From Microbacterium sp. Marseille-Q6648 (lineage in GTDB: Bacteria; Actinomycetota; Actinomycetes; Actinomycetales; Microbacteriaceae), in the NCBI RefSeq assembly GCF_943181415.1, contig NZ_CALPBZ010000001.1, forward strand, positions 124,001 through 188,000: a stretch of DNA of 64,000 nucleotides. The letters run 5' to 3'. Position numbers and translations under genes: made by a program. This document shows, piece after piece, positions 9,842-33,892 of this stretch (position 1 is the first letter of the stretch; the number at the start of each line of letters is the position of its first letter). The notes beneath the pieces are model-generated. The model did not search any database, was not told where the DNA came from, and saw only the letters and a program-made list of their open reading frames with translations.

Positions 9842-9915
<74 letters not shown>

Positions 9916-9968
9916 CCGGAGGGTTGTTGGCAGAACTGATAGCAGAACAGCTCGACTAGGTCGGAAAA

Positions 9969-10005
9969 CACGAAGGCCCCCCGCGATTCGCGGGGGGCCT
10001 TCGTG
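9969..10005 (+). terminator. Strong hairpin terminator after tRNA-Pro
   Basis: A perfect 17-bp stem (9969-9985 with 9989-10005) encloses the three-base loop ATT. It is GC-rich and followed by TTGCC rather than a long T run. It probably ends the tRNA transcript and may also stop read-through from the convergent operon at 10176. Confidence 0.8.
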
Positions 10006-10175
10006 TTGCCTGGCGTCTGGACGCTGGTTTCGGGCGGGTCGTAGACGCCGATTGCGGGTCACTTCCGCGCTCGGGTCGCTGCGGGGAGTTTTCGGGCTCG
10101 CCGGATGTCCGATGGTCCGGCGGGTGAGCTTGCCGTTCGTCTGGCGTCGGCGGTGTCAGCGGGCGAGGGTCGCCG

Positions 10176-12095
10176 TCACGTTCGTAGGGGTTGTGGCTCC
10201 GCGGTGCGCTTGAGGTCCTTCGTGTTGTAGACGCGGATGTCGCCGTTGCCTGTGGTCTTGGTGTATTTGTTCGCCCACCGTTCGCGGCGGCGCGGAGGTG
10301 CCGGTGCGGCCGGAGTTGTCTTGCGCTCCCGTCGCTGCTCGTCGTCGAGGAAGGATGCGATCTTGCGGATGTTGTGATTGACGAGCAGCACCGTGATGAT
10401 GATCTGCGCTGCGCTGATCCCGCGGACGCGCCGGCGGCCGGCTGTTTCGATGTCTTCGTCGCCAGATGCCTTCAGCTGCTGGTTCTCGGACTCGACAGTA
10501 TTGCGAGCGTGGTGGTGGAACTCCTCCCACTCGTCGGTGCCGTAATCAAAGGCCTGTGCCGGCTGCCGCATGGCGGTGAGGTCGAATGCTACAGAGTCCT
10601 GTGTGCATATCTTGTCGAGGAACTCCCTCTCGAGGGTTTCGGGCTCGACGTGCGGACGTGCCTTCTTCGCTGCGGACACCATCGTCTCTCGGAGCGGGCA
10701 GGTGACGGTCGGGCTCGGGCCAAGTGCGGGGCATCGCAGAATCACCTTTCCACCGGGCGTCTTCGCCTTCTCCTTGACGTGCGCTGCGAATGCCTTCCGT
10801 TCCTTGATGCGTGCCTTATAGGTCGCGATGTCGATGATGCCCTTCTGAACGTCGGGGGTCGCAGTGACATGCGGCTTCGGCGTGTTGGGGCAGAGCATGT
10901 CGCCTTCGACTGCGAGGGCGCCGTGCTGACCGCCCTGCACCCCGAGTCGGTCCGCACGGTATTCCGTGGACGGGGTGAAGCCGGTCTCGAGGGCGGGTTC
11001 GAGCAGGCGGCTGGGCACGCTGTTTGCCCAGTACTGCTTATCGGCGTCAGCGACTCCGGGCTCCATTCCGAGCGTCGTGGCCGCCCGGAGCAGGTCGACG
11101 GCTTCCTCAGCGACTTCGCGGTTGGGGATGCTGAGGCTTGCGGCGACGACGATGGTGGGGAATCGCTTGCTGCCGGGCTCCTCAGAGTCCACCCTGACGG
11201 CGAGGTTGGCTACCCATCCCCAGTCGAACACCTTGCCGGCGTTGGCCTTGTCCTTGGGGTTGGTCTGGTCGACTTCGCCGCGCTTGTAGTCGGTGCGTTC
11301 GCCGTTCCCGACGTGCCAGCCGGCGAATGCGTCCACGGGGCCAGGGGCGATCTGGCCGAAGTCGGCCGTCCTGCGTTCAACGGCGATCTTGTCTTTGATG
11401 GTGTTGTGCGAGAAGCCGCGGGTGGTGGGCGTGCCGACATAGGTCTGGTCGAATGACAGGTCGAGCTTCTTGTATCGGCGGCGGATGGCGCGGGGCTGTT
11501 CCATGACGGTCATGCGAAGGAATAGGCGCGTGTATTCGTTGAGCCGTGCCTTGTATTTGGCCGCGCGGACCGGGTCGTGCGCGTCGAGGATGGCCTGGAT
11601 CATCTCGTGCGTCTTCGCTGTGTAGCGTTCCTGGGGATACGGGTCCATGAGCGAGTTCATCCGCTGGAAGGCGCGCATGGTGTTGTTGTACCAGCGGTCC
11701 TTCGAGACGCTCGGGTCGACAAGGTCGCGGTTGCTCTGCGGAAGTCCGAGCAGTTCCTGCGACGCGGGTGAGAGCCTGACCTGAAGCAGTAGCGCCGCGC
11801 GGCGCACATGCATCGGCGAGCTCTCCCGCGCCAGGAGGAGGAATGCGGTGAGCACCGCCCGGGACGAGATCATGGCGGGTCTGCCGCCCATGCCGTCGGT
11901 GTTCCGGTCCTCGAAAGCCCACTGGTCGAGCCGCTCCAGAACACCGGCCTTCCGAACGCGGGCTTCGGCGAGCGCCACGGTGGCGTCGTCGATGAGGTCA
12001 GTGTTCCTGCCGCGGCCCAAGACCTCGGCGGGGCTGATGCCGCCGATGTCGAGGTCATACCCGGGAATCAGGTAGTCGACGTCGCCGGCGGTCAT
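10176..12095 (-). CDS. Large DDE-transposase-like protein
   Basis: A 639-residue protein. The N-terminal part has a transposase-like helical region (GGRPAMISSRAVLTAFLLLA) similar to those in IS5/IS1182-type enzymes. Three acidic residues sit in DDE-like contexts: D in LSFDQTYVG (about 214), D in VADADKQYW (about 348) and E in NTVESENQQLK (about 535). A Cys-containing segment (CPNTPK ... RCPALG ... TCPL) falls between the last two. It is longer than common DDE transposases of these families. The ATG at 12095 overlaps the upstream recombinase-like gene by four bases; the frame stays open further upstream but that part is an Arg/Pro-rich shadow. As the last gene of a four-gene overlapping operon it is probably part of a mobile element. 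The DDE assignment is by eye. Confidence 0.65.
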   Translation of the reverse strand: MTAGDVDYLIPGYDLDIGGISPAEVLGRGRNTDLIDDATVALAEARVRKAGVLERLDQWAFEDRNTDGMGGRPAMISSRAVLTAFLLLARESSPMHVRRAALLLQVRLSPASQELLGLPQSNRDLVDPSVSKDRWYNNTMRAFQRMNSLMDPYPQERYTAKTHEMIQAILDAHDPVRAAKYKARLNEYTRLFLRMTVMEQPRAIRRRYKKLDLSFDQTYVGTPTTRGFSHNTIKDKIAVERRTADFGQIAPGPVDAFAGWHVGNGERTDYKRGEVDQTNPKDKANAGKVFDWGWVANLAVRVDSEEPGSKRFPTIVVAASLSIPNREVAEEAVDLLRAATTLGMEPGVADADKQYWANSVPSRLLEPALETGFTPSTEYRADRLGVQGGQHGALAVEGDMLCPNTPKPHVTATPDVQKGIIDIATYKARIKERKAFAAHVKEKAKTPGGKVILRCPALGPSPTVTCPLRETMVSAAKKARPHVEPETLEREFLDKICTQDSVAFDLTAMRQPAQAFDYGTDEWEEFHHHARNTVESENQQLKASGDEDIETAGRRRVRGISAAQIIITVLLVNHNIRKIASFLDDEQRRERKTTPAAPAPPRRRERWANKYTKTTGNGDIRVYNTKDLKRTAEPQPLRT

Positions 12096-13144
12096 CGGAC
12101 GATCTCCTCGCCGATGAGCAGGCCGGTGAAGTCGGAGGCCGTGAGGGGACGGGCGAGTTCGAGGTAGCGGAAGAGCGTGTGGTAGCTGTCGAAACCGCCG
12201 ACTTCCTTCAGCACCGGGAGGGGGACGCCGCTGTCGATGTGGTGAATGAGCCAGCTCGCGCGGAGGCGGCTCGGTGTCGGCCGCACAAGTGCGGGGTGGT
12301 CGGTGAGGAAAACTTGAATGATACGGGGTGGATACTCCTCGATGTACGGGCCCCGGAACACGGCGTCCGTTGCGTTGCGGCCCTCGATGCTGCGAAGGAG
12401 TACGCGTGCCCAGGCGTGCCGTACCGGCACGCGGCGGGGATGCGGGCCGGGCACGTTGACGAACACGCGACCGTTGACGGCGTCGATATTGCCGACGGTG
12501 GTGTCGACAATCTCTTCGGCGCGGAGTCCGGCGCCGCCAGCCAGTCCGAGCAGCCCCCAGGCGTTCTGCCGCTTCTTCAGCGTGGTGAGGCTGTTTGCCC
12601 AACTGTGCATCGTCGCGATCTGCGGCGTCGTGAACGGGGCGCGAAGCCGAAGGTCAGGGGCGGGCAGTCCCTTCAACTCGGCATCCGTGAGCGCGCGGCC
12701 GTTCGCGACGAGCTGGCGGGCGACGCCCCACTTGTGGGTCTTGGAGCGCCGACCGAGCTGGTTCTGCAGGTACAGGTCGATGTTGTTCTGTGTGTAGACG
12801 CGGTCGACGGTCAGTTCGATGCCGCTGGTCGCCCATAGCCAGGCGTGGAAGCGGGCTGACATCGTCATCAGGCGTCGGGTGGAGTCGTAGGTGGTGGGGC
12901 GAAGCGCGACGGCGGCGGCGAGGGTGAAGTCGCGGACGGCATCCCACTGGACCGAGCTGACGTGTGGGCGGTAGCCGAGCATGATGTGCCAGACGAAGTC
13001 GGGCATCTCGGGGTTGATGTCGCGCAGGTGCGCGTACGTGTCGGCGTCGCGGAGGATGTCGTTGAGTCGGTGTTTTGCGGTCATGCCGAGCATGTACGCG
13101 GCGGCTCGAAAAACCCGCGCGGCGAGCTGATCGGCTCCTCTCAT
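12092..13144 (-). CDS. Tyrosine-recombinase-like protein, histidines missing
   Basis: A 350-residue protein that follows the layout of tyrosine recombinases: helical N-terminal core-binding part, then GAGLRAEEIVDTTVGNID with the box I Arg (about 206), RLRASWLIHHIDSG with the box II Arg (about 294), and SYHTLFRYL with a Tyr at the nucleophile position (about 325). The two conserved His/Trp positions of box II are not kept: the expected HxxR reads PSRLR and the LGH region reads GGF. Strand transfer is therefore possible but not assured. I use the ATG at 13144, which has a GGTGG stretch upstream; a TTG at 13198 would overlap the previous gene. The stop overlaps the next gene as ATGA. Confidence 0.65.
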   Translation of the reverse strand: MRGADQLAARVFRAAAYMLGMTAKHRLNDILRDADTYAHLRDINPEMPDFVWHIMLGYRPHVSSVQWDAVRDFTLAAAVALRPTTYDSTRRLMTMSARFHAWLWATSGIELTVDRVYTQNNIDLYLQNQLGRRSKTHKWGVARQLVANGRALTDAELKGLPAPDLRLRAPFTTPQIATMHSWANSLTTLKKRQNAWGLLGLAGGAGLRAEEIVDTTVGNIDAVNGRVFVNVPGPHPRRVPVRHAWARVLLRSIEGRNATDAVFRGPYIEEYPPRIIQVFLTDHPALVRPTPSRLRASWLIHHIDSGVPLPVLKEVGGFDSYHTLFRYLELARPLTASDFTGLLIGEEIVR

Positions 13145-13181
13145 GACCTGCCACCCTGGCTTCGCGGCGCTCGACCGGTTG

Positions 13182-14093
13182 TCAGTCCACGGGCTCAACC
13201 GGCGGCGGGACGAACTTCGCGATCCGGTCCAGCGCGGCGTGGTTCTCCAGCCCCGCGATCTGGAGCAGTTCTTGCGGGGCGGTGCCGGCGAGCAGGTGTG
13301 TCAGCAGCCAGGTGGTGCGCATCCGGGCTGGCCGCACGTCCAGGTCGGTCTGCTGACCCCGGTGGAGAAAGTCGGTCACTTGAGCGCCGCGGACTCCTTG
13401 CCGTCCGGGTCTGAACACCCAGCGGTCTCGTTCGTCGTCGAGGGAGTCGATGAGCGGTGCCGTCCAGTGCGGAAGCACCGGCACGAGGCGTGCCCGCGAC
13501 TCCCATACCGCGACATGGAGGATCCCGCTGCGCCACTCGAGGTCGGTGCCTCGGACCGCCAGCAGCTCACGGGTGGCAAGTCCCGCGCCCAGGCCGAGAG
13601 CGAGCAGCACGAGCGCATCACGACGCCGACTCGGACGACCCTGTCGCAGCGCCCAGCTCCTCAGCGACGCCACCTCCGCGATCGTGTACGGCGGGGTCGG
13701 CTCCGATCTCGGAAGGGGGAGCGTCCTGTCGTGCGCGGGTGTCACCGCCTCCACGATGGCGAGCAGCGTCGACCGGTACGTGGCGCGGCTGCTGCGAGAG
13801 AACTCGGGCATCCCGCGGTGAACGAACTCCTCCACCAGACGCCGCCGGAAGATCCGATCCATCTCGGCGGGGATACCCCGCGTCTGCCACGCCCACAGTG
13901 CGAACGCGGTCGCAGGCGGGAACAAGCTGCGCTCGTCCCGGTTCAACCTGCGGGCCGCAACGGCCACGGCGCCTGTGACTGCTGGTTCGAGCTCAGTCCA
14001 GTACGCGCCGGCTTTCACCGGCCGGTAGGGCGTCGGATCTGCGGGGCCTGACAACCCCGAGCCGCTCCCGGGCGTTGGCGTGGGCTGGTTCAC
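13182..14093 (-). CDS. Degenerate tyrosine-recombinase-like protein
   Basis: A 303-residue protein homologous in layout to its downstream neighbour. It keeps the box I context GAGLATRELLAV, but the expected Arg after GL is Ala. The box II block RMRTTWLLTHLLAG keeps one Arg. In the tail IAGLENHAALDRIAKFV the nucleophilic Tyr position is occupied by Ile. It is therefore probably catalytically dead and may serve as a DNA-binding partner of the second recombinase-like protein. The GTG start overlaps the stop of the preceding small gene (GTGA), so translation is coupled. Assignment to the family is by motif order only. Confidence 0.6.
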   Translation of the reverse strand: MNQPTPTPGSGSGLSGPADPTPYRPVKAGAYWTELEPAVTGAVAVAARRLNRDERSLFPPATAFALWAWQTRGIPAEMDRIFRRRLVEEFVHRGMPEFSRSSRATYRSTLLAIVEAVTPAHDRTLPLPRSEPTPPYTIAEVASLRSWALRQGRPSRRRDALVLLALGLGAGLATRELLAVRGTDLEWRSGILHVAVWESRARLVPVLPHWTAPLIDSLDDERDRWVFRPGRQGVRGAQVTDFLHRGQQTDLDVRPARMRTTWLLTHLLAGTAPQELLQIAGLENHAALDRIAKFVPPPVEPVD

Positions 14094-14455
14094 CTCCCCG
14101 CCCCCGATCGAGGGGGACGCGGTACCCCTCGCAGGATGCCAGCGACAGGTTCGGTGGTGCGCCGGGTGAACCAGACGCCAGGGATGTCGAGGTCGAGCAG
14201 AAGCACCATCGGCTCCCCGACACGGCAGGTGGCGAGGAGGACGAGGTCCACCTCTTCACGACTGCGACGTTGAATCGGACTGCCGGAGGTGGGGAAGGTG
14301 GCGACTGTGCGGGTGTCAAGGTCGACACGCAACACGGTCCCGTCGTCGGTCTCCACCAGGTGTACGCCGCTCATGTCATCGGTGAGAAACGGTTCCGAGA
14401 GCGCAGCGTCCACGTCCAACCCCCTTCGGTATACCGGCTTCGTCGACATCGCCAC
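14090..14455 (-). CDS. Small hypothetical protein heading the recombinase-like operon
   Basis: A 121-residue protein that I do not recognise. It contains the hydrophobic stretch VDLVLLATCRVGEPMVLLLDLDIPGVWF and acidic segments (VDLDTRTVATF), suggesting a compact alpha/beta domain. No signal peptide or helix-turn-helix is visible. The first start is a GTG at 14455; an ATG two codons later is also possible. Its stop overlaps the GTG of the next gene, which makes it the first member of the four-gene operon running to 10176. A role as an accessory or regulatory subunit of the putative mobile element is inference. Confidence 0.5.
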   Translation of the reverse strand: MAMSTKPVYRRGLDVDAALSEPFLTDDMSGVHLVETDDGTVLRVDLDTRTVATFPTSGSPIQRRSREEVDLVLLATCRVGEPMVLLLDLDIPGVWFTRRTTEPVAGILRGVPRPPRSGAGR

Positions 14456-14594: not shown

Positions 14595-15152
14595 GTGAAC
14601 GAACCCCACCTCCATGCGATGGCGGACGCGATCTGGCGCGCCGCCGACCCCGGCGACACCGCCGCCGCGCGCTACGCCGCAGCCGCCGAGCACTTCCTCT
14701 CGGGTGTTCCGGTGGTGTACGTCCGGCCGACCAAATGGATCCTCACTTTGAGGGCATACGAACGGTTCTGGGAGCAGCACGACCGGACCCCACGCGAGAA
14801 CACCCGGGCGCGCAGCACCCTCCCCGCCGCCGAACGTCACCTCGGCGAATGGGCGCGGTATCAGAGACGCTTCGAGGAGCACCTCAACGGATACCAGCTC
14901 GGCCGGCTCGAGGTGTCACCGGCGTTCGTGTGGGATCTTCGCGGCGCGAACTGGCACCGCCACCTCATCGCCTGCCACGCACACCGAGCCGAAAGCGGAC
15001 AGCTGCCCCGGCTGAACGCCGACGACACCGAGGAGTTCGCTCTCGCGCGATGGCTCGGCCGTCAGCTCCGCCGACTGCAACTCGGAAACCTCACCCCCGC
15101 ACAAACCCGACAACTGAGCCTCCTCCTCGCCCACGATCCACGCCCCCGTTGA
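14595..15152 (+). CDS. Helicase-associated domain protein, no helicase attached
   Basis: A protein of about 185 residues with the repeat pattern of helicase-associated (HA) domains: RFWEQHDRTPREN...ERHLGEWARYQRR...HLNGYQLGRLE and later SGQLPRLNADDTEEFALARWLGRQLRR...GNLTPAQTRQL. HA domains bind nucleic acid and normally sit at the C-terminus of large actinobacterial helicases, often in several copies. Here the frame before the GTG at 14595 is not protein-like and no helicase motif occurs, so it is a free-standing unit. It faces away from the recombinase-like operon across about 140 bases. Function unknown; DNA or RNA binding is inferred. Confidence 0.6.
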   Translation: MNEPHLHAMADAIWRAADPGDTAAARYAAAAEHFLSGVPVVYVRPTKWILTLRAYERFWEQHDRTPRENTRARSTLPAAERHLGEWARYQRRFEEHLNGYQLGRLEVSPAFVWDLRGANWHRHLIACHAHRAESGQLPRLNADDTEEFALARWLGRQLRRLQLGNLTPAQTRQLSLLLAHDPRPR

Positions 15153-15241: not shown

Positions 15242-16057
15242 TCATGCGGGTGGGGCTCCGGCGGTACGGATGTCGTGCAGGGTGAGGGTGTGGATGTGTA
15301 GTCGGTGGAGGTCGACGATCGAGGCGTGGCCGTATTGGCCGTCGCAGCCGAGGCTGATGACGCGGCGTCCGTCGGCGGTGATGCCGCCGCCGGGGGCGTG
15401 CATGTGGCCGTGGAGAAGCAGTTCGGGGCGGACGGCGTCGAACACGTCCGTGATTCTTCTGCGGGAGGCGGCGGAGGCGGCGAGCGTGTCCCTGTCGAGG
15501 CCGAGGGGGTTGATGCGGAGGGAGTCGCCGACGGCGCGGACAGGGGTATGGGCCGGGGATTCGTGGGTGATCATGATGTCGGCGGGACCGCCAGCGATCG
15601 CGGCGGCGACGTGGGCGTCGGTGATCTCCTCGTCGGGCCACCAGTCTCGTCCTTCGGTGCGCCACCGCCGGTCCACCGAGGTCGCGCCTCCGAGGGACAG
15701 GATGCGTCGACCTCCGATGGTGAGCCGGTAGGGGCGAGGCAGGATCCAGGTCACTGCCGACACCCGCACTGCGTGCCCGGGGTGCGCGTCGAGCAATGGG
15801 GTCAGCTGGTTCCAGGGTTCGTGGTTGCCGAGCGTGACGTACACGCGGGTGATCCCGGCGGTGAGGAAACTGTCATCGCTGCGTTCGGGGTGGGTCCACC
15901 AATCCCCGGCCTGCAGGATCGTGTCCATCCCGGGCGCGATACGGCTGATCGCCCGTGCCACGCGCCGGATCCACCCGGTGTTGCCGTGCCAGTCCCCGCA
16001 CACCGCGACCCGTTGCGCCGGCAGGTCGATGCTGTCCGCCGTCTCCCACACCCTCAC
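15242..16057 (-). CDS. Calcineurin-like metallophosphoesterase
   Basis: A 271-residue phosphoesterase with the full set of metal-binding motifs in order: GDWHGN (residues 21-26), GDW (about 50), GNHE (about 77), THE (about 165) and HGHMH (about 217). It should bind two divalent metals and hydrolyse a phosphomonoester or diester; the substrate is not evident. There is no signal peptide, so it is cytoplasmic. The GTG start at 16057 is preceded by GAGGAGG at ideal spacing. It is 30 bases downstream of the HAD-domain gene on the same strand, so the two phosphate-transfer-type enzymes are probably co-transcribed, which hints at a shared role in nucleic-acid end processing or defence. Confidence 0.85.
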   Translation of the reverse strand: MRVWETADSIDLPAQRVAVCGDWHGNTGWIRRVARAISRIAPGMDTILQAGDWWTHPERSDDSFLTAGITRVYVTLGNHEPWNQLTPLLDAHPGHAVRVSAVTWILPRPYRLTIGGRRILSLGGATSVDRRWRTEGRDWWPDEEITDAHVAAAIAGGPADIMITHESPAHTPVRAVGDSLRINPLGLDRDTLAASAASRRRITDVFDAVRPELLLHGHMHAPGGGITADGRRVISLGCDGQYGHASIVDLHRLHIHTLTLHDIRTAGAPPA

Positions 16058-16087: not shown

Positions 16088-17467
16088 CTAGGGTCGTGTG
16101 AGGTTGTCCGCTTCCCAGAGCAGGTCCAGCAGCCAAGTGAGGTCGCGGCCCTGCTGCAGCCAATCGACAGGGGTAGTTCCGTCGAGTTCTTCCCATGGCG
16201 TGGTCATGATCGTTGTGACGTCCTTCGTGGGTCTGCCCGGCGCCGCGATGGTGAGCAGCACCTGATGCAGCCCGGGGAGGGGCCGCCCGGTGTGATCGAA
16301 CTGCCAGACGGGGAACATCAGTCCCTGCGCGGTGGCGTCGGCGATGATCTCCCCACGCGCCCGTCGCGCCCGGACCGTGGACGCCGACACCCCCCACTTG
16401 CTCGCCAACTCACCCGTCGATGCCCACGCCACACCGCCGGCGTTTCCGGGTGGGTCGAGTGTGCGTTTGAGGTGATCGTTCTGTTCGGGGGAGTCGGGGA
16501 GCAGCGGAGGGACCCCGCCCTCGACGGCAAACTGCTTCTCTTCTTGGGTTAGGCCGGTGCTGCGGCAGAAGGCGTTTCCGGTAGCGGCGCGGAGCCGGCC
16601 GCCGCGGTACCGGTGGAGGGTGCCGACCAGGCGCAGCACCGTTGACCACGACGGGTCATCCGGGTGCGGGTTCTGTCGGTACGCGTGCTGGAGCTCTTCG
16701 ATGTCGAGAACCTGGGCGCGGGCGAGGGCGGCGAGGTACCGGGCGGTGTCGCTGTCTGACGGGAACGCCTGGGTCAGCGCCGCCCGGGCGCTGACCCAGC
16801 GGGCGTGACCTTCGACGGTGCCCCACCGTTCCTGGATCCGCTGCCTCCGACGCTGATTCATCTGCCCATGTTGCCGCCGCCGCAACTCCCCCTGCCCCTC
16901 CCGGCTGCTGACCAGCTCCAACCACTCCGACATCACCGCCACGTCCTGGGCCGTGATCCCCGTGTGCGGGTCGGTCACCCGATGCACGTAGGTGAGGGTC
17001 CGATCCAGACGCCCTCGGTGATGCCGCAGCGGCCCGGGACGGTCATCGACCCACAGCACCGGACGTCCTGCGGTAGCGGCCGCGATGTTCCGCGCCTTCC
17101 ACTGCGCGGACGTCTCCGACAATCCCGCACCCGTGTCCGGCACCACCGGTAACTGGGGCAGACCCAGAGGGCCCGCGAAGTACCGGTTCGCGTGCTCCTG
17201 CCAGGTCGTGCACCACTGGACATCGACGCCCCGCTCGACGAGGCTCCTGACCCATCGTGCTCCTGCGGCGGAGAAGAAATGCTCCTGTCTCCACTTGCCC
17301 GTCGAGTCCCATGGCGGTTGCGAGTGGAAGACGTCCGGATACTCGTCACGGGTCATTGTGATCGTCACGGACTCTGCCTCGAACTCCGGAAACGGTGGCG
17401 GAGGCACTCGCAGCACACCATCCACGTCGAGTGCCACTACCGGTCGATAGCGATCGAGCGCCCCCAT
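16088..17467 (-). CDS. HAD (RNA-repair-type) protein with HTH and toxin-binding-like C-terminus
   Basis: A 459-residue protein of at least three parts. Residues 1-165 are a HAD-like domain of the kind found in Swiss-army-knife RNA repair proteins: VVALDVDGVL carries the DxD nucleophile pair, WCTTWQEHAN and GLPQLPVV follow, and LWVDDRPG supplies the later acidic pair. The middle is a basic helical region of unknown fold. Residues about 346-380 look like a helix-turn-helix (STGELASKWGVSASTVRARR), and 384-459 (FPVWQFD, LPGLHQVLL, LDGTTPVDWL) resemble the MbcA/ParS/Xre toxin-binding domain. The ATG at 17467 has a perfect AGGAGG upstream. A paralogue of the HAD part is at 24249-25130. The two C-terminal assignments are by pattern only. 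Confidence 0.6.
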   Translation of the reverse strand: MGALDRYRPVVALDVDGVLRVPPPPFPEFEAESVTITMTRDEYPDVFHSQPPWDSTGKWRQEHFFSAAGARWVRSLVERGVDVQWCTTWQEHANRYFAGPLGLPQLPVVPDTGAGLSETSAQWKARNIAAATAGRPVLWVDDRPGPLRHHRGRLDRTLTYVHRVTDPHTGITAQDVAVMSEWLELVSSREGQGELRRRQHGQMNQRRRQRIQERWGTVEGHARWVSARAALTQAFPSDSDTARYLAALARAQVLDIEELQHAYRQNPHPDDPSWSTVLRLVGTLHRYRGGRLRAATGNAFCRSTGLTQEEKQFAVEGGVPPLLPDSPEQNDHLKRTLDPPGNAGGVAWASTGELASKWGVSASTVRARRARGEIIADATAQGLMFPVWQFDHTGRPLPGLHQVLLTIAAPGRPTKDVTTIMTTPWEELDGTTPVDWLQQGRDLTWLLDLLWEADNLTRP

Positions 17468-17508
17468 GCCTACCTCCTGCCGTGTGGTGGCTGACATCGG
17501 GACTCGTT

Positions 17509-17528
17509 GTGACACCCCGGGGTGTGAC
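17509..17528. promoter_or_regulatory. Palindrome upstream of the HAD-HTH gene
   Basis: The 14 bases ACACCCCGGGGTGT (17512-17525) form a perfect palindrome, extended to near symmetry over 17509-17528. It lies about 45 bases before the start of the HAD-HTH gene and is followed by GGGTGTGACCC and GGGGTCACCACCC, a second imperfect pair. Because the protein carries a helix-turn-helix, self-binding here is plausible but only inferred. Confidence 0.4.
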
Positions 17529-18208: not shown

Positions 18209-19777
18209 ATGACGCCGACCACCAAAGAAGCCCAGCGCGCAGAACTGCACAAGACCATCTGGCGGATCGCGAACGACCTGCGCGGGTCGGTCGATGGCTG
18301 GGACTTCAAGAGCTACGTGCTCGGCATGCTGTTCTACCGCTTCATCTCCGAGAACCTCACCGCCTACATCAACAACGGCGAACACGAAGCCGGCGAGACC
18401 GACTTCGACTACGCACGCCTCCCCGACGCTGAGGCCGAGTTCGGCCGCACGGAAACCGTCGCGGAAAAGGGGTTCTACGTCCTGCCTTCCGAACTCTTCC
18501 AGAACGTCCGCAGGCGCGCGCCGAAGGACGACAACCTCAACGAGACCCTTGAACGAGTCTTCAAGAACATCGAAGGCTCGGCCGTCGGCACTGACAGCGA
18601 AAACGACCTCAAAGGCCTCTTCGACGACCTCGACATCAATAGCTCCAAGCTCGGCAACACCGTCGCCAAACGCAACGAAAAGCTAGTGAAGCTGCTCGAC
18701 GCGATCGGCGACCTCCCCCTCGGCAACTTCGAGGACAACTCCATCGACCTGTTCGGCGACGCCTACGAGTACCTCATGCAGATGTATGCCTCGCAGGCAG
18801 GCAAGTCCGGTGGTGAGTACTACACACCGCAGGAAGTCTCCGAGGTGCTCGCCCGCATCACCGTCATGGGCAAGACCCGCGTCAACAAGGTCTACGACCC
18901 CGCTGCCGGATCCGGTTCGCTGCTGCTCAAGTTCGCCAAGGTGCTCGGCCGCGAGAACATCGGCGGGTTCTACGGTCAGGAGATCAACCTGACCACCTAC
19001 AACCTCGCCCGGATCAACATGTTCCTCCACGACGTCAACTACGAGAAGTTCGACATCGCCCACGGCGACACCCTCACCGACCCGCACCACTGGGACGACG
19101 AACCCTTTGAAGCGATCGTCTCCAATCCGCCCTACTCCATCAAATGGGACGGCGACGCCAACCCGCTCCTGATCAACGACGAGCGTTTCGCGCCAGCTGG
19201 GGTGCTGGCGCCGAAGTCGAAGGCGGACCTCGCCTTCACCATGCACATCCTGAGCTGGCTCGCCGTCAACGGCACGGCCGCCATCGTCGAGTTCCCCGGT
19301 GTGCTCTACCGCGGGGGAGCGGAGCAGAAGATCCGCAAGTACCTCATCGACAACAACTACGTTGACGCCGTGATCCAGCTGCCGCCCGACCTTTTTTTCG
19401 GGACCACGATCGCGACCTGCATCATCGTGCTCAAGAAGTCAAAGACCGACAACGCGGTCTTGTTCGTGAACGCGTCGGACGAGTTCAAGCGGGTCGGCAA
19501 CAAGAACAAGCTCACGCCTGACCACCAGCAGAACATCCTCCTTGCGCTGGAGAACCGCGAGGACGAAGACCACTTCGTCAAGCTGGTGCCGAACGAGGAG
19601 GTTGCCGCAAACGACTACAACATCTCAGTGTCGTCGTACGTCGAGCAGGAGGACACGCGCGACGTCATCGATATCACAGTGCTGAACGCAGACATCGCGC
19701 GCATCGTAGCTCGGCAGTCCGAACTCCGCGTTTCTATTGACGCGATTGTTGCGGATCTCGAAGGTTCCGCCGTATGA
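18209..19777 (+). CDS. hsdM: Type I restriction-modification methyltransferase subunit HsdM
   Basis: HsdM is the N6-adenine methyltransferase subunit of the type I complex; two copies with one HsdS form the modification enzyme. The 522-residue product has the N-terminal helical domain (LHKTIWRIANDLRG, FKSYVLGMLFYRFIS), the S-adenosylmethionine motif DPAAGSGSLLLKF at about residue 230 and the catalytic NPPY at about residue 306 (IVSNPPYSIKWDG). The length is typical of type IC HsdM. GAGGAG lies 12 bases upstream of the ATG. Its stop overlaps hsdS as ATGA, and all three hsd genes are coupled in this way. Confidence 0.97.
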   Translation: MTPTTKEAQRAELHKTIWRIANDLRGSVDGWDFKSYVLGMLFYRFISENLTAYINNGEHEAGETDFDYARLPDAEAEFGRTETVAEKGFYVLPSELFQNVRRRAPKDDNLNETLERVFKNIEGSAVGTDSENDLKGLFDDLDINSSKLGNTVAKRNEKLVKLLDAIGDLPLGNFEDNSIDLFGDAYEYLMQMYASQAGKSGGEYYTPQEVSEVLARITVMGKTRVNKVYDPAAGSGSLLLKFAKVLGRENIGGFYGQEINLTTYNLARINMFLHDVNYEKFDIAHGDTLTDPHHWDDEPFEAIVSNPPYSIKWDGDANPLLINDERFAPAGVLAPKSKADLAFTMHILSWLAVNGTAAIVEFPGVLYRGGAEQKIRKYLIDNNYVDAVIQLPPDLFFGTTIATCIIVLKKSKTDNAVLFVNASDEFKRVGNKNKLTPDHQQNILLALENREDEDHFVKLVPNEEVAANDYNISVSSYVEQEDTRDVIDITVLNADIARIVARQSELRVSIDAIVADLEGSAV

Positions 19778-20994
19778 GTCACATCGATGATCTGATCGCC
19801 TCAGCTGCTCCGCAGGGCATCGAGTTCAGGACGCTCGGTGAAATCGCCGAACTCGTTCGCGGAAATGGCATGCCAAAGACAGACCTCACCGAGGCCGGCG
19901 TCGGTGCTATCCACTACGGGCAGATCTACACGCGCTACGGCGTTTGGACCACCAGCACCCTCTCCTACGTCGCTCCGGAGACCGCAGCCAAGCTCGCAAA
20001 GGCGAATCCGGGTGACATCATCATCACCAACACCAGCGAGAACGTCGAAGACGTCTGTAAGGCGGTGGCATGGCTCGGTGAACTGCCGATCGTGACCGGC
20101 GGTCACGCGACGGTCATACGCCATGGTCAGGATCCGAAGTATCTCGCGTACTGGTTTCAGTCGGAGTCATTCCGCAAACAAAAGAAGGCTCTGGCGACCG
20201 GCACAAAAGTCATTGATGTCTCGGCACGCCAACTAGCGAAAGTCCGAATCCCCGTGCCGCCTCTCGATGTGCAGCGTGAAATCGTGCGAATCTTGGATCA
20301 GTTCACTCAGCTGGAGGCGGAGCTGGAGGCGGAGCTGGAGGCCCGTCGACAGCAGTATGCCTACTACCGGGACTCGCTGGTGCGTGCCGTCGATGGCGAT
20401 GTGGTCGCCCTGGGTCAACTCGGCACGTTCATCCGAGGTCGACGGTTTACCAAGAACGACGTTGTAGATGAGGGCATTCCGAGCATCCACTACGGCGAGA
20501 TCTACACCGACTACGGCGTATCCGCATCCCGCGCGAATCGGGAGCTGCGTTCGGACATGGCGGGTCAGCTTAGGTACGCACAACCTCGCGACGTGATCTT
20601 TGCAGGCGTTGGCGAGACCGTCGAAGACGTTGGCAAGGCGGTCGCCTGGCTGGGCGACGGGCCGGTCGCGGTGCACGACGACACGTTCTCGTTCACGTCC
20701 GGACTCGACCCGAAGTACGTCGCTTATGCAGTTCAGACCAAGGATTTTCATGCTCAGAAGGCGAACTATGTCGCGCGCGGCAAGGTGAAGCGGCTCTCAT
20801 CTGCCGGACTCGCCAAGATCACGATCCCGGTGCCAGGCCCCGCCGAACAGAAGCGCATTGTGGCGCTGCTCGATGGGTTCGACACGCTCGTCAACGACCT
20901 CCGCGTCGGTCTCCCCGCCGAACTGGCTGCACGCCGCCAGCAGTACGAGTACTACCGCGACAAGCTCCTCACCTTCGAGGAGGCCGCGGCATGA
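19774..20994 (+). CDS. hsdS: Type I specificity subunit HsdS (type IC-like)
   Basis: HsdS reads the two halves of the target and sets methylation and restriction specificity. The 406 residues hold two target recognition domains (about 1-165 and 206-370), each followed by a conserved helical spacer: IVRILDQFTQ...RRQQYAYYRDSL and IVALLDGFDTLV...RRQQYEYYRDKLL. The first spacer contains LEAE repeated (residues 180-191), the counterpart of the TAEL repeat of EcoR124 enzymes. The two recognition domains resemble one another (IHYGQIYTRYGV and IHYGEIYTDYGV; VEDVCKAVAWLG and VEDVGKAVAWLG). The recognition sequence cannot be derived by reading. It overlaps hsdM and hsdR by four bases each. Confidence 0.96.
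   Translation: MSHIDDLIASAAPQGIEFRTLGEIAELVRGNGMPKTDLTEAGVGAIHYGQIYTRYGVWTTSTLSYVAPETAAKLAKANPGDIIITNTSENVEDVCKAVAWLGELPIVTGGHATVIRHGQDPKYLAYWFQSESFRKQKKALATGTKVIDVSARQLAKVRIPVPPLDVQREIVRILDQFTQLEAELEAELEARRQQYAYYRDSLVRAVDGDVVALGQLGTFIRGRRFTKNDVVDEGIPSIHYGEIYTDYGVSASRANRELRSDMAGQLRYAQPRDVIFAGVGETVEDVGKAVAWLGDGPVAVHDDTFSFTSGLDPKYVAYAVQTKDFHAQKANYVARGKVKRLSSAGLAKITIPVPGPAEQKRIVALLDGFDTLVNDLRVGLPAELAARRQQYEYYRDKLLTFEEAAA
20311..20346 (+). repeat. 12-bp tandem repeat in the HsdS spacer
   Basis: CTGGAGGCGGAG occurs at 20311-20322 and again exactly at 20323-20334; a third partial unit, CTGGAG, begins at 20335. Each unit encodes LEAE. Gain or loss of one unit keeps the frame and would lengthen or shorten the helix between the two recognition domains by four residues. 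Confidence 0.9.
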
Positions 20995-23900
20995 GCGACG
21001 CCTCTCCTCGCAAGTACGAACCGATCGCCGTCTCGGCAGAGTCGACTGTGGTCGCAGAGTACGTCCCCGACGCTCACGCCTCGGCGGCCTACCAGTCGGA
21101 GTCCGCGCTCGAGCACGAGCTGATTCGGCTCCTCGAGTCGCAGGCATACGAGTACCTTCCTGTCACGTCCGAGGCGCAGCTCGTGGCGAACCTGCGCACT
21201 CAGCTTGAGGCACTGAACCACATCACCTTCTCCGACGCGGAGTGGGCGGACTTCTTCGACAACAAGATCGCCGGCAAGAACGATGGCATCGTCGAGAAGA
21301 CCGTGCGCATCCAGGAGGACCACGTCCAGCTCCTGAAGCGTGATGACGGCTCGACGAAGAACATCACGTTGCTGGACAAGCAGAACATCCACAACAACCG
21401 CCTACAGGTCATCAACCAGTACGAAATCGGCCAGGGTGGAGGCGGCGCGAACTTCGCCAACCGCTACGACGTCACGGTGCTCGTCAACGGCCTGCCGATG
21501 GTGCACATCGAGCTCAAGCGCCGCGGCGTCGACATCCGTGAGGCGTTCAACCAGATCGACCGCTATCAGCGGGACAGCTTCTGGGCCGGGTCTGGTTTGT
21601 TCGAGTATGTGCAGCTGTTCGTGATCAGCAACGGCACGCTGACGAAGTACTACTCGAACACGACGCGCACGCAGCACATCAGTGAGGGCAAGAAGCAGAC
21701 CAAGGGCCGCAAGACGTCGAACTCGTTCGAGTTCACGTCCTGGTGGGCGGACGCACAGAACAAGCCGATCCAGGATCTAACCTCATTCGCGAGGACGTTC
21801 TTCGCCAAGCACACGCTGCTGAACATCCTCACCCGCTACTGCGTCCTCACTGCCGACCGGCTGCTCCTGGTGATGCGCCCGTACCAAATCGTCGCGACCG
21901 AGCGGATCCTGCAGCGCATCGACATCGCCACGAACTACAAGCAACTCGGCACGGTCGCCGCGGGCGGCTATGTCTGGCACACCACCGGGTCCGGCAAGAC
22001 CCTGACGAGCTTCAAGACAGCACAACTGGCGTCGAAGCTGCCGAGTGTGGACAAGGTGCTGTTCGTCGTGGACCGCAAGGACCTCGACTACCAGACGATG
22101 CGTGAGTACGACCGGTTCCAGAAAGGCGCGGCCAACTCCAACACCTCAACAGCGGTGCTGAAGACGCAGCTGGAGGACCCGGGCGCGCGGATCATCATCA
22201 CAACGATTCAGAAGCTGTCGACGTTCATCAAAGCGAACAAGGGGCATGCGATCACCAACGACCACGTCGTGATCATCTTCGACGAGTGCCACCGCTCACA
22301 GTTCGGTGACATGCACACCGACATCACCCGCGCGTTCAAGCGCTACAACCTCTTCGGCTTCACCGGGACACCGATCTTCGCCGCCAACGCCGGCGCCGGC
22401 GGCAACCCCCAGCTGAAGACCACCGAGCAGGCGTTCGGTGAGAAGCTGCACACCTACACGATCGTGGACGCGATCACCGACAAGAACGTGTTGCCGTTCC
22501 GGATCGATTACGTCAACACCGTCAAGGTCGGCACCGTCGTTGACAAGCAGGTGTCGGCCATCGACACCGAGAAGGCGCTGCTGGCGCCTGAGCGCATCAG
22601 CCAGGTCGTGCAGTACACGCTGGAGCACTTCGACCAGAAGACCAAACGCTCCTCGACGTATCAGCACTCGGTGGTGACGAACGTTGCCGCGTCGACCCGC
22701 GCCCGCCGTCAAGCCGAGGCTGTGCATGCCCCCAGGTCGGTGCGCGGCTTCAACGCCATCTTCGCCACCGCGTCGATCGACGCGGCGCGCCGCTACTACA
22801 ACCACTTCCAGATTCAGCAGGAAGCCCTCCCTGCCGTCCGGCGCCTGAAGATCGGTCTCATCTACTCGTACGGGGCGAACGACGCCAGCGACGACGGCAT
22901 CCTCGACGACGAAGCCTTCGACACCGACGCGCTCAGTACGGACGCGCGGGGCTTCCTCGAGGATGCGATCCAGGACTACAACGACATCTTCGGCACGAGC
23001 TACGACACCACCGCGCACAAGTTCCAGAACTACTACAAAGACCTCTCCCAGCGGCTGAAGAACCGGGAGCTGGACATGGTGATCGTGGTGAACATGTTCC
23101 TCACCGGCTTCGACGCGACCACTCTGAACACCCTCTTCGTCGACAAGAACCTGCGGGCGCACGGCCTCATCCAGGCGTACTCGCGCACCAACCGCATCCT
23201 GAACTCGGTGAAGACGTACGGCAACATCGTCGCCTTCCGTGACCTTGAGGAAGAGACCAACGCCGCCCTCGAGCTGTTCGGCAACAAGGACGCCCGCGGT
23301 GTCGTGCTCCTCAAACCCTATGGGGAGTACTACGGCGAGTACACCGAGAAGGCCGACGAGCTGCTGGCATCGTTCCCCCTCGGCCAGCAGATAGTCGGAG
23401 AAGCCGCGCAGAAAGACTTCATTCAACTGTTCGGCGCCATCCTGCGGCTGGAGAACATCCTCACTTCCTTCGACGACTTCGCCGGGCACGAGAGCCTCAC
23501 CGAACGCCAGGTGCAGGACTATCGCAGCGTCTACCTTGACCTGTACGCCGAGTTCCGCACGCTCAAGGACGCCGACAAGGAACTCATCAACGACGACGTG
23601 GTGTTCGAGATCGAGCTGATCAAGCAGGTCGAGATCAACGTCGACTACATCCTGATGCTCGTCCAGAAGTACCGCAGCCAGCACGGTGACGGCGAGGACA
23701 AGGAGATCCGCGCTGAGATCTCCCGCGCCGTCGACGCGAGCCCGACCCTGCGCAACAAGAAGGACCTCATCGAAGCATTCGTTGACTCCGTCTCCGTCGA
23801 CGGTGCCATCGACGAAGAATGGCAGGCGTTCATCGCCGCCAAGCGCGAAGCCGAGCTCGCGGCGATCATCGAGAACGAGCGACTCCGGGCCGACGCCACT

Positions 23901-24086
23901 CGCGCGTTCATCGAGACCGCGTTCCGCGACGGCACGCTCCGCACGACCGGCACCGCCATCACGAAGGTCCTGCCGCCCGCTTCCCGGTTTGCAGCGGATG
24001 GCGGACACGGCGAGAAGAAGCAGCGCGTGATCGAGAAGCTCGGCGCGTTCTTCGAGCGGTTCTTCGGACTAGGCAGCGACATCTAG
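20991..24086 (+). CDS. hsdR: Type I restriction endonuclease/translocase subunit HsdR
   Basis: HsdR translocates DNA with an SF2 motor and cuts unmethylated DNA away from the target. The 1031-residue product has a PD-(D/E)xK nuclease site near residues 157-176 (YDVTVLV...VHIELKRRG), Walker A TTGSGKT at about 330, motif II DECHRSQFG at about 431, and the later motor motifs FTGTP and SRTNR. The C-terminal helical part binds the methyltransferase core. Length and the DECH box fit the type IC (EcoR124) branch, as does HsdS. The sequence is intact, so with hsdM and hsdS the system appears complete and active. Confidence 0.97.
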   Translation: MSDASPRKYEPIAVSAESTVVAEYVPDAHASAAYQSESALEHELIRLLESQAYEYLPVTSEAQLVANLRTQLEALNHITFSDAEWADFFDNKIAGKNDGIVEKTVRIQEDHVQLLKRDDGSTKNITLLDKQNIHNNRLQVINQYEIGQGGGGANFANRYDVTVLVNGLPMVHIELKRRGVDIREAFNQIDRYQRDSFWAGSGLFEYVQLFVISNGTLTKYYSNTTRTQHISEGKKQTKGRKTSNSFEFTSWWADAQNKPIQDLTSFARTFFAKHTLLNILTRYCVLTADRLLLVMRPYQIVATERILQRIDIATNYKQLGTVAAGGYVWHTTGSGKTLTSFKTAQLASKLPSVDKVLFVVDRKDLDYQTMREYDRFQKGAANSNTSTAVLKTQLEDPGARIIITTIQKLSTFIKANKGHAITNDHVVIIFDECHRSQFGDMHTDITRAFKRYNLFGFTGTPIFAANAGAGGNPQLKTTEQAFGEKLHTYTIVDAITDKNVLPFRIDYVNTVKVGTVVDKQVSAIDTEKALLAPERISQVVQYTLEHFDQKTKRSSTYQHSVVTNVAASTRARRQAEAVHAPRSVRGFNAIFATASIDAARRYYNHFQIQQEALPAVRRLKIGLIYSYGANDASDDGILDDEAFDTDALSTDARGFLEDAIQDYNDIFGTSYDTTAHKFQNYYKDLSQRLKNRELDMVIVVNMFLTGFDATTLNTLFVDKNLRAHGLIQAYSRTNRILNSVKTYGNIVAFRDLEEETNAALELFGNKDARGVVLLKPYGEYYGEYTEKADELLASFPLGQQIVGEAAQKDFIQLFGAILRLENILTSFDDFAGHESLTERQVQDYRSVYLDLYAEFRTLKDADKELINDDVVFEIELIKQVEINVDYILMLVQKYRSQHGDGEDKEIRAEISRAVDASPTLRNKKDLIEAFVDSVSVDGAIDEEWQAFIAAKREAELAAIIENERLRADATRAFIETAFRDGTLRTTGTAITKVLPPASRFAADGGHGEKKQRVIEKLGAFFERFFGLGSDI

Positions 24087-24248: not shown

Positions 24249-25130
24249 TCACGACGACCCTGTGCCCCGGGGAAGATCGAGGAGCGGAAGAAGCGCCTCA
24301 GCCGGCGGATCGACAGGAAGTCCCCAGTCCTCCCGAATCCGCTCGACAACCCGGAGGTCCAGCGCACCCGCGCTGTCTACTGCATACGCGGCGAGCGGCG
24401 CTGCGAGACCAGACCCGGCATCGACGACGTCCGCGAGCCGCGATCGAACGGTAGCCCACTCCCGCTGAACACGTTCGGTCGAGAGGTCCAGACGCCGTCG
24501 CTTGTCAACGAGCCGTGCTCTCATCGCGCGGAGCTCCGCGTGACCTGCAGGTGAGACGGCGTGCCGGAGCCACTCATCCATGAACCGCACATCGCCATCG
24601 GACGCACCGCCCGGAATGAACCTCGACCACGTCAACGCCCGCATCTTCGGCTTGCGATAGCGCTCCAGTAGATGCCGTCCAGCGCTCGTCAGCTCGTCGT
24701 GAACCCACAAGAGCGGTCGATCTGCATAGGCCGCCTGACTCAGCTGGCTGGCCTTCCAGTCGGCTTCGGTCGTGTGGAATCGCCCGTCGTCGGTTGTCGC
24801 AACGGGGAGTTCGGGGAGGCCGAGCGCAGGGCTGAAGTATGTGTTCGCGTACTGCTCGTACCGGCTCGACCAGACGACCTCGATACCTCGCTCCAGCGCA
24901 CCCTTGACCCAGAGCACCCCGCGGCCGAGAAACGCCCACCGCTCGATGTGCTCGCCGCGTTCATCCCAGCCGGGAGCGCCGACGAAGCGAGTCGGGTACG
25001 CGTCGCGGCGGAATGTGATCTCCGCGCCGGTGCCCGTCAAGAACCTCGTCTCGAGAGAGGCAGGCAGGGGAAGACCGAGCAGTCCGGTCACCTCGATGGC
25101 GACAACGGGACGGAAAGCCTCGTTCGACAT
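24249..25130 (-). CDS. HAD-like paralogue with lost catalytic aspartates
   Basis: A 293-residue protein whose first 165 residues align along their length with the HAD domain at 16088-17467: RPVVAIEVTGLLGLP against RPVVALDVDGVLRVP, then WSSRYEQYANTYFSPALGLPELPV, and LLWVHDELTS against LWVDDRPG. The DxD nucleophile motif has become ExT and the later acidic pair is partly lost, so phosphatase activity is unlikely. The rest is helical and charged (LRAMRARLVDKRRRLD) without the HTH and toxin-binding-like parts of the paralogue. It lies just beyond hsdR on the opposite strand. A binding or regulatory role is inferred. Confidence 0.6.
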   Translation of the reverse strand: MSNEAFRPVVAIEVTGLLGLPLPASLETRFLTGTGAEITFRRDAYPTRFVGAPGWDERGEHIERWAFLGRGVLWVKGALERGIEVVWSSRYEQYANTYFSPALGLPELPVATTDDGRFHTTEADWKASQLSQAAYADRPLLWVHDELTSAGRHLLERYRKPKMRALTWSRFIPGGASDGDVRFMDEWLRHAVSPAGHAELRAMRARLVDKRRRLDLSTERVQREWATVRSRLADVVDAGSGLAAPLAAYAVDSAGALDLRVVERIREDWGLPVDPPAEALLPLLDLPRGTGSS

Positions 25131-26416: not shown

Positions 26417-29400
26417 GTGAGTGACGCATCCATGGTGAACGACAACGTTGCTCGTGCATCGCAAGAGTGGAAGAGCGCCCTCATCGACGTCAGCGGCACG
26501 AACCGCCTGCTGCACTTCAAACCCACCAGCACCACGCTTGACCTTTCTTCTGCGACCGAACGCGGTCTGCTCCGCCTGTTCCGGGGCGACGGCGTTTCGG
26601 TACGCGACTTGTACGCGGATCGAACCGCCGCGGACCACGCCGCCCGCGCTGCCGCAGCGCTGCACCGCAAGCAACGCGAAGCTACCGAGGAGTACGGCGT
26701 CTCGGTCACCTACCTCGCTCTCGGCTTCGCGACCTGGGACCCGGAAAGCAACCGGGCACTCGCCGAAGCGGAAGCCGACGAGCTTGGTGAAGAGGTACCC
26801 GCCCGCGTACGGCGGGGGCCTTCACCGAACGCGCCGGTCCTGCTGCGCCCTGTCGAGGTCATCCGCCGCCGCGGCGTCACCGACGACTGGGAGATCAAGC
26901 TCGTCGACGACTTCCAGGTCAACGGCGTCCTCCTCCACGTGGTCAACTCCGACCGCCCACGAATCCTCGAGGAAAAGCTCCTCGAACCAACGGCGGACTT
27001 CGAAACCGCAACCATCACACCTGGCATCAACACCACCCTGCAAGGCGTCCTCGACGCAGTCCGCAGCGGCTGCGCCGACATCGCCGGATTCGCCGCTCAC
27101 GGCAACATGGTCATCGGCACCTTCTCCTACCAGAAGCAGCCGATGGTCAACGACGTCGCCAACCTCGCGGCGCTGACCCGCTCGGACCTGGCCGCCGCCC
27201 TCGCCGGTGACGTTGAAGCCGCCGCACGAGTCCGGGCAGCGGCATCCCACATCGCGGTCACCGAGGCCGACCCGGACTACGCGCCAGTGGACTCGGAATA
27301 CCTGGTCCTTGACGCGGACGCCAGCCAGTCGTACGTCGTCAACGCAGCGCTCGCCGGAAAGAACCTTGTCGTCCAGGGGCCTCCCGGGACGGGAAAAAGC
27401 CAAACGATCGCGAATGTGATTGCCGCGTTGGTGGCCGACGGCAAGCACGTGCTGTTCGTCGCCCAGAAGCGCGCGGCAATCACGGCTGTCCTGGACCGAC
27501 TACAGGGCGCGGACCTCTCGCATCTGCTTCTTGATCTGTTCGCCGCGGACGGCTCGCGACGTGTCATTGCTGAGCAGCTTCGTACCGTCTTGGACCGGCA
27601 GCAGCAGATCGGCGAGCCAGACACGTCCTACCTGCACGCGCGGCTGACCTCATCGCGCGACCGCCTCGTCCGCCACAACGATGCGCTCTTCGCGCCCACG
27701 CACGGCTGGGGTGCCAGCATCCACGAACTGCGCGTCGCATCGCTCGGGTTCCCACCCGAAGCGCAGACTCCTCTACGGCTGAACCCCGCAACGTTCAACG
27801 GGTGGAAGCTGGACACGCTCGGTTCCGCCCAGACAGACATCGACGAACTCGGCAGACTCGGTGCACTTGACCCCGAATGGAACACCCACCCCGGCTGGTC
27901 GCCCGCGGCGATGACGAGCGCAGACGAGGCCGAACGACTCCGTCAGCTCGCGCTCGACCTGCGGTGGACAACCCTCCCCGCGCTCACCCACCAGTTCTCC
28001 GAAGCAGCGGCCCTCAGCGGGCACAGCGCTCCACGCGGGATCCAGGAGTCAGACGCGCTCACCGCGATGCATCACGACGCAGCGCGCGTCGCCGCAGTCA
28101 GCGCCGAACTGCTGAACGGAGCGGACCTCGATGCGATGCTCGCGGGGGTATCCAAGCCCCACCGCCGGGAAATGACCGGCATGACCTGGTCGCGCCGGCG
28201 GGAAGGCAAGAAAGCACTCGCGCGACTCATGCCCGGGACCTCGGCACGTGACCGCGTGAACCTCCTCCTCATCGCCCGCGCTGTCCGAACCGCATGGCAG
28301 AACACCCCGGTCACGCCCTACTTCGCAGCAGAGACGATGGTCAGCGCGTACGGGGAAGCGAGGGAAAGCATCGCTCACATCGATCGTGCCCTCCAGGGCG
28401 TGTCGCTGGCGTCGATGAACTTCGATGCCGCCGCCTCCGCGCTCGACACCGTGCTCGCGGATACACGCACGGGTCAGATGATGCGCGCCCACGGACTCGA
28501 GCAGAATCTGGTCCGCCTCGGGCTCGGCCCCGTGGTCGCGCTGCTGCGCGCGCGCGCCGCCACACGCGAACTCGGGCTCGCACGGCCGAGCGAAGTTCTT
28601 CGGTGGGTGTGCGTCCGCTCGGTCCTCGAGGCGGCAGAGCTGGCGAACCCCGCGATCGCTGGGGTTCGCGGTGACGTGCTCAGCGACGCGACCGCGGCGT
28701 TTCAGCAGCTGGACAGCAGCCACCTCCAGGCCAATGCCGCCCGGGTGCGCCGCAAGGCGGCGGTCTACCTGAAGCACGCGTTCGACACCTTTCCGGACCA
28801 GCACAGCGCCCTGAAGACCGAGGTCACCAGGAAACGGAACTTCCGCCCCGTACGGCGCTTGTTCGACGAGGTACCTGACGTCCTGCTCGCGGCTAAGCCC
28901 GTCTGGGCGATGAGCCCACTGCAGGTCTCGCGGATTCTCCCGGCTGCGCAGTGTTTCGACGTCGTGATCTTCGATGAGGCCAGTCAGGTCAAACCGGCTG
29001 ACGCTATCCCCGCCCTGGTACGCGGCCGGCAGGCGATCGTGGCAGGTGACTCTCGCCAGCTCCCGCCGACGGAGTTCTTCACCAAGGTCCTGGAAGACGA
29101 GGAAGAACCCGAAGACGATGCCCCGCTGGAAAGCACCGATGAGGTATTGCCAGCGAAGCCGGCAACAAGGCCGCGCTCGTCGTACACCCGAGATGCGGAG
29201 AGTGTCCTGTTCGCTATGGACCGACTCCTCGCCGGGCAGAGCCGAAGCCTCCAGTGGCATTACCGTTCCTATGACGAACGCCTGATCGCCGTATCCAATA
29301 AGCACGTGTATGACGGGAGCCTGACGACCTTTCCAGCGCCCGACGCTCTCAAGTCCATCCGGCACGAGGTCGTTCCGTATAGCCCGGGCATCTCCGGCGG

Positions 29401-33825: not shown

Positions 33826-33857
33826 CGAAAGGGCCCGCCGTTCGGCGGGCCCTTTCG
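33826..33857 (-). terminator. Hairpin terminator of the fatty-acid oxidation pair
   Basis: A perfect 15-bp GC-rich stem, CGAAAGGGCCCGCCG with its complement, around a two-base TT spacer. It is downstream of the minus-strand hydroxyacyl-CoA dehydrogenase and may work in both directions; on the minus strand it is followed by TTGTCC. Confidence 0.7.
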
Positions 33858-33892
33858 CGTCCCCCGTGCTGTCGTACCCCACGGGCCCGTCT

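Follow-up and report, generated by a model that had tools for sequence, protein, structure and literature searches.

What does an operon move, and by which chemistry, when it sets a DDE-type transposase beside two degenerate tyrosine recombinases? The question arises from four genes that follow one another head to tail at 14455-10176 (minus strand) in a 64,000-nt stretch of Microbacterium sp. Marseille-Q6648 (NZ_CALPBZ010000001.1), here called the window, to which coordinates refer unless another locus is named. Gene 1 (14455-14090) encodes a small protein of unknown function (121 aa), gene 2 (14093-13182) a distal tyrosine-recombinase-like protein (303 aa), gene 3 (13198-12092) a DDE-proximal protein with a tyrosine-recombinase fold (368 aa) and gene 4 (12095-10176) a DDE transposase (639 aa). 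An earlier, sequence-only reading had given this layout with two overlapping junctions, and both are found, each 4 nt long: GTGA between genes 1 and 2, ATGA between genes 3 and 4. The 2/3 junction overlaps only with a TTG start of gene 3, which could also start at an internal ATG (13144). Together, the genes apparently serve to mobilize a ~24-kb transposon located exactly at the end of a transfer RNA (tRNA) gene, and the key feature beyond what had been noticed is that target, the 3' end of tRNA genes. We put at roughly three in four the probability that this is a targeted DDE transposon, with dead recombinases steering the transposase to the tRNA 3' end.

Ends of the element

The element spans 9921-33816 (23.9 kb) and abuts its insertion target, an intact tRNA-Pro(GGG) (9842-9917, plus strand, ARAGORN) whose 3' end faces the end of the DDE gene. 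On the left, the 6-bp direct repeat ACCGGA (9915-9920, plus) begins at discriminator base 73 and leads into the terminal inverted repeat GGGTTGTTGGCA (9921-9932, plus), which agrees at 12/12 positions with the right one (33805-33816, minus; TGCCAACAACCC on the plus strand); a second ACCGGA (33817-33822, plus) follows. Across the left junction the sequence is CCCG-ACCGGA-GGGTTGTTGGCA, and across the right one TGCCAACAACCC-ACCGGA-CAACGAAAGGG. Because ACCGGA begins at its discriminator base, the tRNA-Pro stays whole. In each of the 11 best relatives printed, the joined flanks align through their joint without interruption, and the empty sites L213, L214, L215 and L217 hold a single ACCGGA followed by a hairpin. 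A like hairpin at 33827-33859 of the window is read as the original terminator of tRNA-Pro, now displaced, since in the empty-site relatives it lies directly 3' of the tRNA; a perfect hairpin with 20-bp arms (9967-10007), between the tRNA and the DDE gene, is probably a terminator supplied by the element. Two subterminal direct repeats, 9925-9935 and 9937-9947 (plus), are 9/11 alike at a spacing of 12 bp. A right border at ~37.6 kb, drawn from synteny with G217, was replaced by 33.8 kb from the inverted repeat. Ends, direct repeats and empty sites together bear out the mobility that had been supposed.

Far ends were sought by the same anatomy in ten more elements, and all eleven were scored against 300 null patterns each; the right ends rest on short sequences. 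The flanking repeat is well supported in the window (ACCGGA, 0/300 null patterns as good), G006 (ACCAAA, 2/300), G071 (GCGTCA, 1/300) and G080 (ACGGA, 0/300), and likewise, at 0/300 each, in G168 (ACAGGT), G087 (GCTTCC), G004 (GCACTG) and G190 (ACTTCAC). It is weakly supported in G182C2 (ACAGTG, 8/300), G182C1 (GCCATT, 28/300) and G150 (ACCAG, 45/300). Pattern-based tries gave ACCAGA in L024 and ACAGAAT in L026, with inverted repeats agreeing at 12/12 in both; in L025, which has a broken DDE gene, the far end was not found by pattern. This brings the well supported far ends to 10 of the 14 elements tried. The repeats are identical at the two ends of an insertion, and their sequence and length (5, 6 or 7 bp) vary among insertions, even among Pro-type relatives with 66-73% DDE identity to the window protein (6 bp in the window and L024, 7 bp in L026). 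Two direct repeats with at least 9/11 bases alike occur at 31/52 left ends, a likeness reached by 5.6% of shuffles; the spacing of the best pair is 22-23 bp in 31 and 12 bp in 9, in a scoring that took in direct repeats only. Across the family, the terminal inverted repeats begin with GGG, the 5-7-bp direct repeat runs from N73, and the elements share one orientation, in which DDE gene and tRNA are convergent.

In G006 (L031 and L116), two abutting elements lie head to tail at a single tRNA-Pro, the second a decayed relative, and both have the ACCAAA repeat; one tRNA is therefore possibly reusable. The first alignment hit there in the search for a duplicated tRNA 3' part was in fact the joint between these tandem elements.

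A target inherited by descent

We read 66 stretches, 46 from the first searches (L023-L068) and 20 from a phylum search (L177-L196), which with the window hold 72 DDE-family open reading frames (ORFs), 44 of them full-length. A tRNA gene lies within 600 bp of the end of 52/72 (35/44 of the full-length ones), and 52/52 are convergent with it; these are ORFs rather than elements and make up 51 loci, since L032 is counted twice. By comparison, a convergent tRNA lies within 600 bp of 38/7600 random points in 38 fetched 20-kb stretches. The targets are tRNAs for Pro, Leu, Ser, Met, Ala, Lys, Gly and Tyr, plus an Arg case at 642 bp. The target isotype follows descent, with 9 changes over the 37 labelled rows of a 46-protein tree, where shuffled labels gave a mean of 20.5 and 0/200 were as low. 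Among twelve inspected ORFs that have no intact tRNA within 600 bp, those in L030, L025, L060 and L186 abut what by eye is an apparent tRNA 3' half; either half a tRNA may suffice as target or a phage may have split the tRNA later. A further one, in L185, runs into the 3' end of a transfer-messenger RNA (tmRNA) gene (Rfam); a tmRNA gene also lies farther along in L190 (~4.0 kb) and L191 (~1.6 kb), two of the remaining seven, which show no tRNA. Ribosomal RNA was suspected beside a tRNA-Ala element and none was found there.

No duplicated 3' part of the tRNA-Pro was found at the far end of the window element, either with a 39-bp pattern of that part, which has a single occurrence in the genome when up to 3 mismatches are allowed, or in a 30-base scan. 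An ordinary integrase island was rejected as a candidate on this ground. Elsewhere in the genus, 43-51 nt of the tRNA-Pro 3' part recur ~2-68 kb off (e.g. G216, G231, G237, G220 and G248), and therefore the same tRNA is probably used by ordinary integrase islands.

Homologues of the DDE protein are present in 43/199 genomes of a family sample and 19/396 of a phylum sample, the genome itself being counted in both. Because 38/44 full-length DDE ORFs adjoin a recombinase-like gene and 25/44 have two within 9 kb (the L178 pair being overlapping frames, and both L054 DDE ORFs counting one common pair), the operon association is not due to chance. Co-occurrence in other genomes, which the sequence-only reading had proposed to check, is indeed seen: the genes travel together in other Actinomycetota, with the same gene order across other families and classes, and the 121-aa protein has relatives at seven other loci, on the opposite strand in L034 and L048. 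One could still imagine a chance, decayed assembly, in which a remnant integrase island at tRNA-Pro lies beside an unrelated insertion sequence. Many DDE homologues are fragments, as such decay would predict; the recurrent gene order, the conserved active site, the precise ends and the inherited target leave this explanation barely credible.

In L054 (1871-5661), two tandem DDE-family ORFs with overlapping ends follow two recombinase-like genes, and the first lacks D352 and E535. DDE homologues were also met in six Streptomyces plasmid records, among them a linear plasmid (L262, 4226-7041) where the homologue lies behind an overlapping gene of recombinase-like size and both are annotated as hypothetical. 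Phage records gave no match to the DDE or the distal protein.

The transposase and its recombinase-like partners

Sequence comparison and structural models show the 639-aa protein as a predicted Tn5/IS4-like DDE transposase. The fold is Tn5-like and RNase H-like, in which strand 1 holds the first D, the second D comes after strand 4 and the E lies in the next helix. The triad proposed earlier as D214, D348 and E535 stands, as does E535, while two of its numbers become D216 and D352. It is complete in 41/44 full-length ORFs, and this active site is under strong selection; selection on the recombinase active sites is much weaker. The D-E distance is 183. The Y(2)R(3)E(6)K motif of IS4 is complete in 8/32 proteins and its R(3)E(6)K part in 27/32, the window protein lacking the Tyr. 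No Pfam family matches the 121-, 303- or 639-aa protein above cut-off, a sequence search of the PDB gave nothing useful, and PF13751 found nothing in the genus, so that the profile comparison was made with phylum loci.

The second recombination fold that had been anticipated is equally recognizable. The 368-aa protein matches Pfam Phage_integrase (32.7 bits, cut-off 27.1) and has a Cre/XerA-like tyrosine recombinase fold with core-binding and catalytic domains; NCBIfam adds Xer-like matches below cut-off and one weak unrelated match. The 303-aa protein is homologous to it (tblastn E 8e-15) and is assigned to the fold by this similarity. The residue losses described from the sequence recur in our alignment: the 303-aa protein has Ala at the first Arg and Ile at the Tyr and has also lost the histidines, and the 368-aa protein keeps R226, R313 and Y345, with S310 and F336 in place of the histidines. 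Among 45 aligned recombinase-like proteins (26 proximal and 19 distal), scored for a catalytic set of Arg, His, Arg, His/Trp and Tyr with the Lys position left aside, a His of the set is present in 0/45 and the first Arg in 13/45; R, R and Y occur together in 12/26 proximal and 0/19 distal proteins. A full catalytic set was seen in only one of 31 further ORFs, L192:427-1446, which resembles an ordinary integrase. Alignments and models show tyrosine-recombinase-fold partners that have lost most catalytic residues across the family.

These losses bear directly on the alternative that the proximal protein, with its dead partner, inserts a circular form at the tRNA 3' end, the DDE-like protein being an accessory. 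The circular joint would be two inverted repeats around a 5-7-bp overlap, and the joined ends of the element (12-bp inverted repeats around 6 bp) do resemble a recombinase core site. The integrase of Tn1549 is a close structural match, in PDB entries titled CI5 and CI6b, which we take to denote 5- and 6-bp spacers; Y345 is kept in 22/26 proximal proteins, and tRNA genes are classic recombinase targets. However, the missing His and mostly missing first Arg stand against a DDE triad that is nearly always complete, and the tRNA 3' half that usual tRNA islands carry is missing from the element. Repeats that are identical at both ends and yet change between related elements are disallowed by a strict overlap, and hard to obtain from any recombinase with a fixed, homology-checked one; in Tn916-type elements, the coupling sequences need not match. 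We consider integration by the recombinase unlikely, and because the flanking repeats are identical for each insertion yet variable in sequence and length between insertions, which is the trace left by a DDE transposase, we favor the DDE enzyme as the worker.

The two enzymes might also divide the labor, the DDE protein transposing and the recombinase pair resolving cointegrates or circularizing the element, as modeled by Tn3-family elements with tyrosine resolvases. One operon does hold both enzyme types, and the left-end subterminal repeats, whose spacing is mostly 12 or 22-23 bp, could be recombinase sites. Both recombinases have nevertheless lost catalytic residues, the repeats found (only direct ones were scored) are direct, whereas a core site has an inverted pair, and the tRNA target would be left unexplained, which makes this division highly improbable.

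How the target may be chosen

In the targeted transposon that we prefer, the DDE protein would cut the element out and join it to the target, giving rise to the duplication. The two dead recombinases would bind the tRNA gene at its T-arm and acceptor region, a usual attachment site of active recombinases, and possibly also the element ends. The pair would also deliver the transposase to the 3' end of the tRNA, with register and orientation both fixed. We give the selector role to the recombinase-like proteins because they have a DNA-binding fold, because their genes are kept although the chemistry is largely lost, and because TnsF, an inactivated recombinase, is a tested precedent as target selector in Tn6022, according to the sections of PMC10293859 cited here.

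Several observations weigh against this assignment. Over 32 loci the isotype changes 7 times on the tree of the DDE protein and 8 times on that of the proximal one, and over the 18 loci with all three genes 4, 4 and 4 times (DDE, proximal and distal), so the recombinase-like proteins are not singled out; because the three trees perform about equally, they do not identify the tRNA reader. The main loose end is the Tyr kept in most proximal proteins, which, with R-R-Y in 12/26, may retain some catalysis; the Tn1549 integrase indicates that some recombinases are less strict. No recombinase-like gene neighbors 6/44 full-length DDE ORFs, and some others have only one. No intact tRNA lies within 600 bp of 20/72 DDE ORFs, no tRNA was seen at 7 of the 12 inspected, and the Streptomyces plasmid homologue in the one record inspected has none alongside. 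Finally, the null used to score the ends keeps the offset and spacer already selected as best and is somewhat kind.

Relation to known systems

The closest parallel is Tn6022, a Tn7-like element. As given in those sections of PMC10293859, it too is a DDE transposon with one chromosomal site, a selector with an inactivated tyrosine-recombinase domain (TnsF) and a target-site duplication, but it uses TnsB where we find a Tn5/IS4-like transposase, TnsF carries N-terminal zinc fingers where we find two separate recombinase-like proteins with no zinc-finger match, and its target is comM instead of a tRNA 3' end. No Pfam match to Tn7-like parts (TnsB/TniA rve, TnsC-type AAA+, TnsA, TniQ/TnsD) was found in the four operon proteins and ten cargo ORFs of the window element. 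Tsy, in the same source, shares one operon with two tyrosine-recombinase-family proteins and a fixed target; there, both recombinase activities are reported essential and no DDE enzyme is among the listed genes. With the IS4 superfamily (IS4, IS50/Tn5, IS1634), as set out in the passages of PMC2266710 cited here, the transposase shares the Tn5-like fold and the R(3)E(6)K part, and the 5-6-bp repeats of IS1634 come near the 5-7 bp seen here. The elements here, in contrast, are 9-80 kb long with partner genes and a fixed target, and the IS4 family itself has a target duplication of ~10 bp and a D-E range below ours; by full motif and duplication, our elements fall outside it.

Our search of the open-access literature found no such element, and it is within that literature that the earlier label "undescribed" holds. 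In their location at tRNA genes and their accessory genes, the present elements are like tRNA islands and other integrative elements that use tyrosine integrases, but no full catalytic set is present in the 45 recombinase-like proteins, insertion is at base 73, and the tRNA 3' part has no duplicate in this genome. Tn554 (TnpA/B/C) and recombinase-in-trio elements, as usually described, also have tandem recombinase genes with a further gene; here that gene is a DDE transposase and the recombinases are degenerate. With less assurance, we lean towards a previously undescribed superfamily of Actinomycetota transposons that arrived independently at homing in the manner of Tn7: an IS4/Tn5-like transposase for which no AAA+ relay was seen, a dead pair that would read the T-arm and acceptor to reach N73 of tRNA (and tmRNA), lineages dedicated to particular tRNAs, and an anti-phage load.

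Islands at tRNA genes are usually credited to tyrosine integrases, and the present elements point to a second route, through a DDE transposase. If our reading is true, they would add to TnsF a further case of target choice by inactivated recombinases, here with two proteins and no ATPase seen. The variants that nature has re-targeted (to Pro, Leu, Ser, Met, Gly, Tyr, Ala and Lys) make the rules of target choice testable. The elements may also account for the movement of some defence islands in Actinomycetota, and their proteins could serve as a compact site-directed insertion tool.

Cargo of the elements

The cargo comprises genes that, by sequence, resemble anti-phage systems, which supports the suspected link to defence. 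In the window it includes a calcineurin-like phosphoesterase (15242-16057, minus), type I restriction-modification genes hsdM, hsdS and hsdR (18209-24086, plus), a DUF4011/AAA/MTES_1575 helicase-nuclease (PDC-S37; 26417-30508, plus) and an Mrr-type type IV restriction enzyme (32023-32952, minus). From four further elements we selected ten proteins among the larger cargo ORFs, a choice that is not an enrichment test, and 7/10 clearly match defence-type families in PADLOC or Pfam: PDC-S28, ApeA/PDC-S58, UvrD/GajB-like, ThiF/E1-like, PD-Lambda-2_B, Lamassu LmuB and RES/HEPN (Pfam only). The other three are one with weak LmuA/Avs2 matches only, an ADP-ribosylglycohydrolase without a PADLOC match, and one without any match. 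Immediately upstream of the operon, a short plus-strand ORF (14595-15152) has a helicase-associated domain match below cut-off. Two cargo proteins without a Pfam match, at 16088-17515 and 24249-25130, flank the type I restriction genes and are paralogous to each other (33% over 291 aa, E 3e-37).
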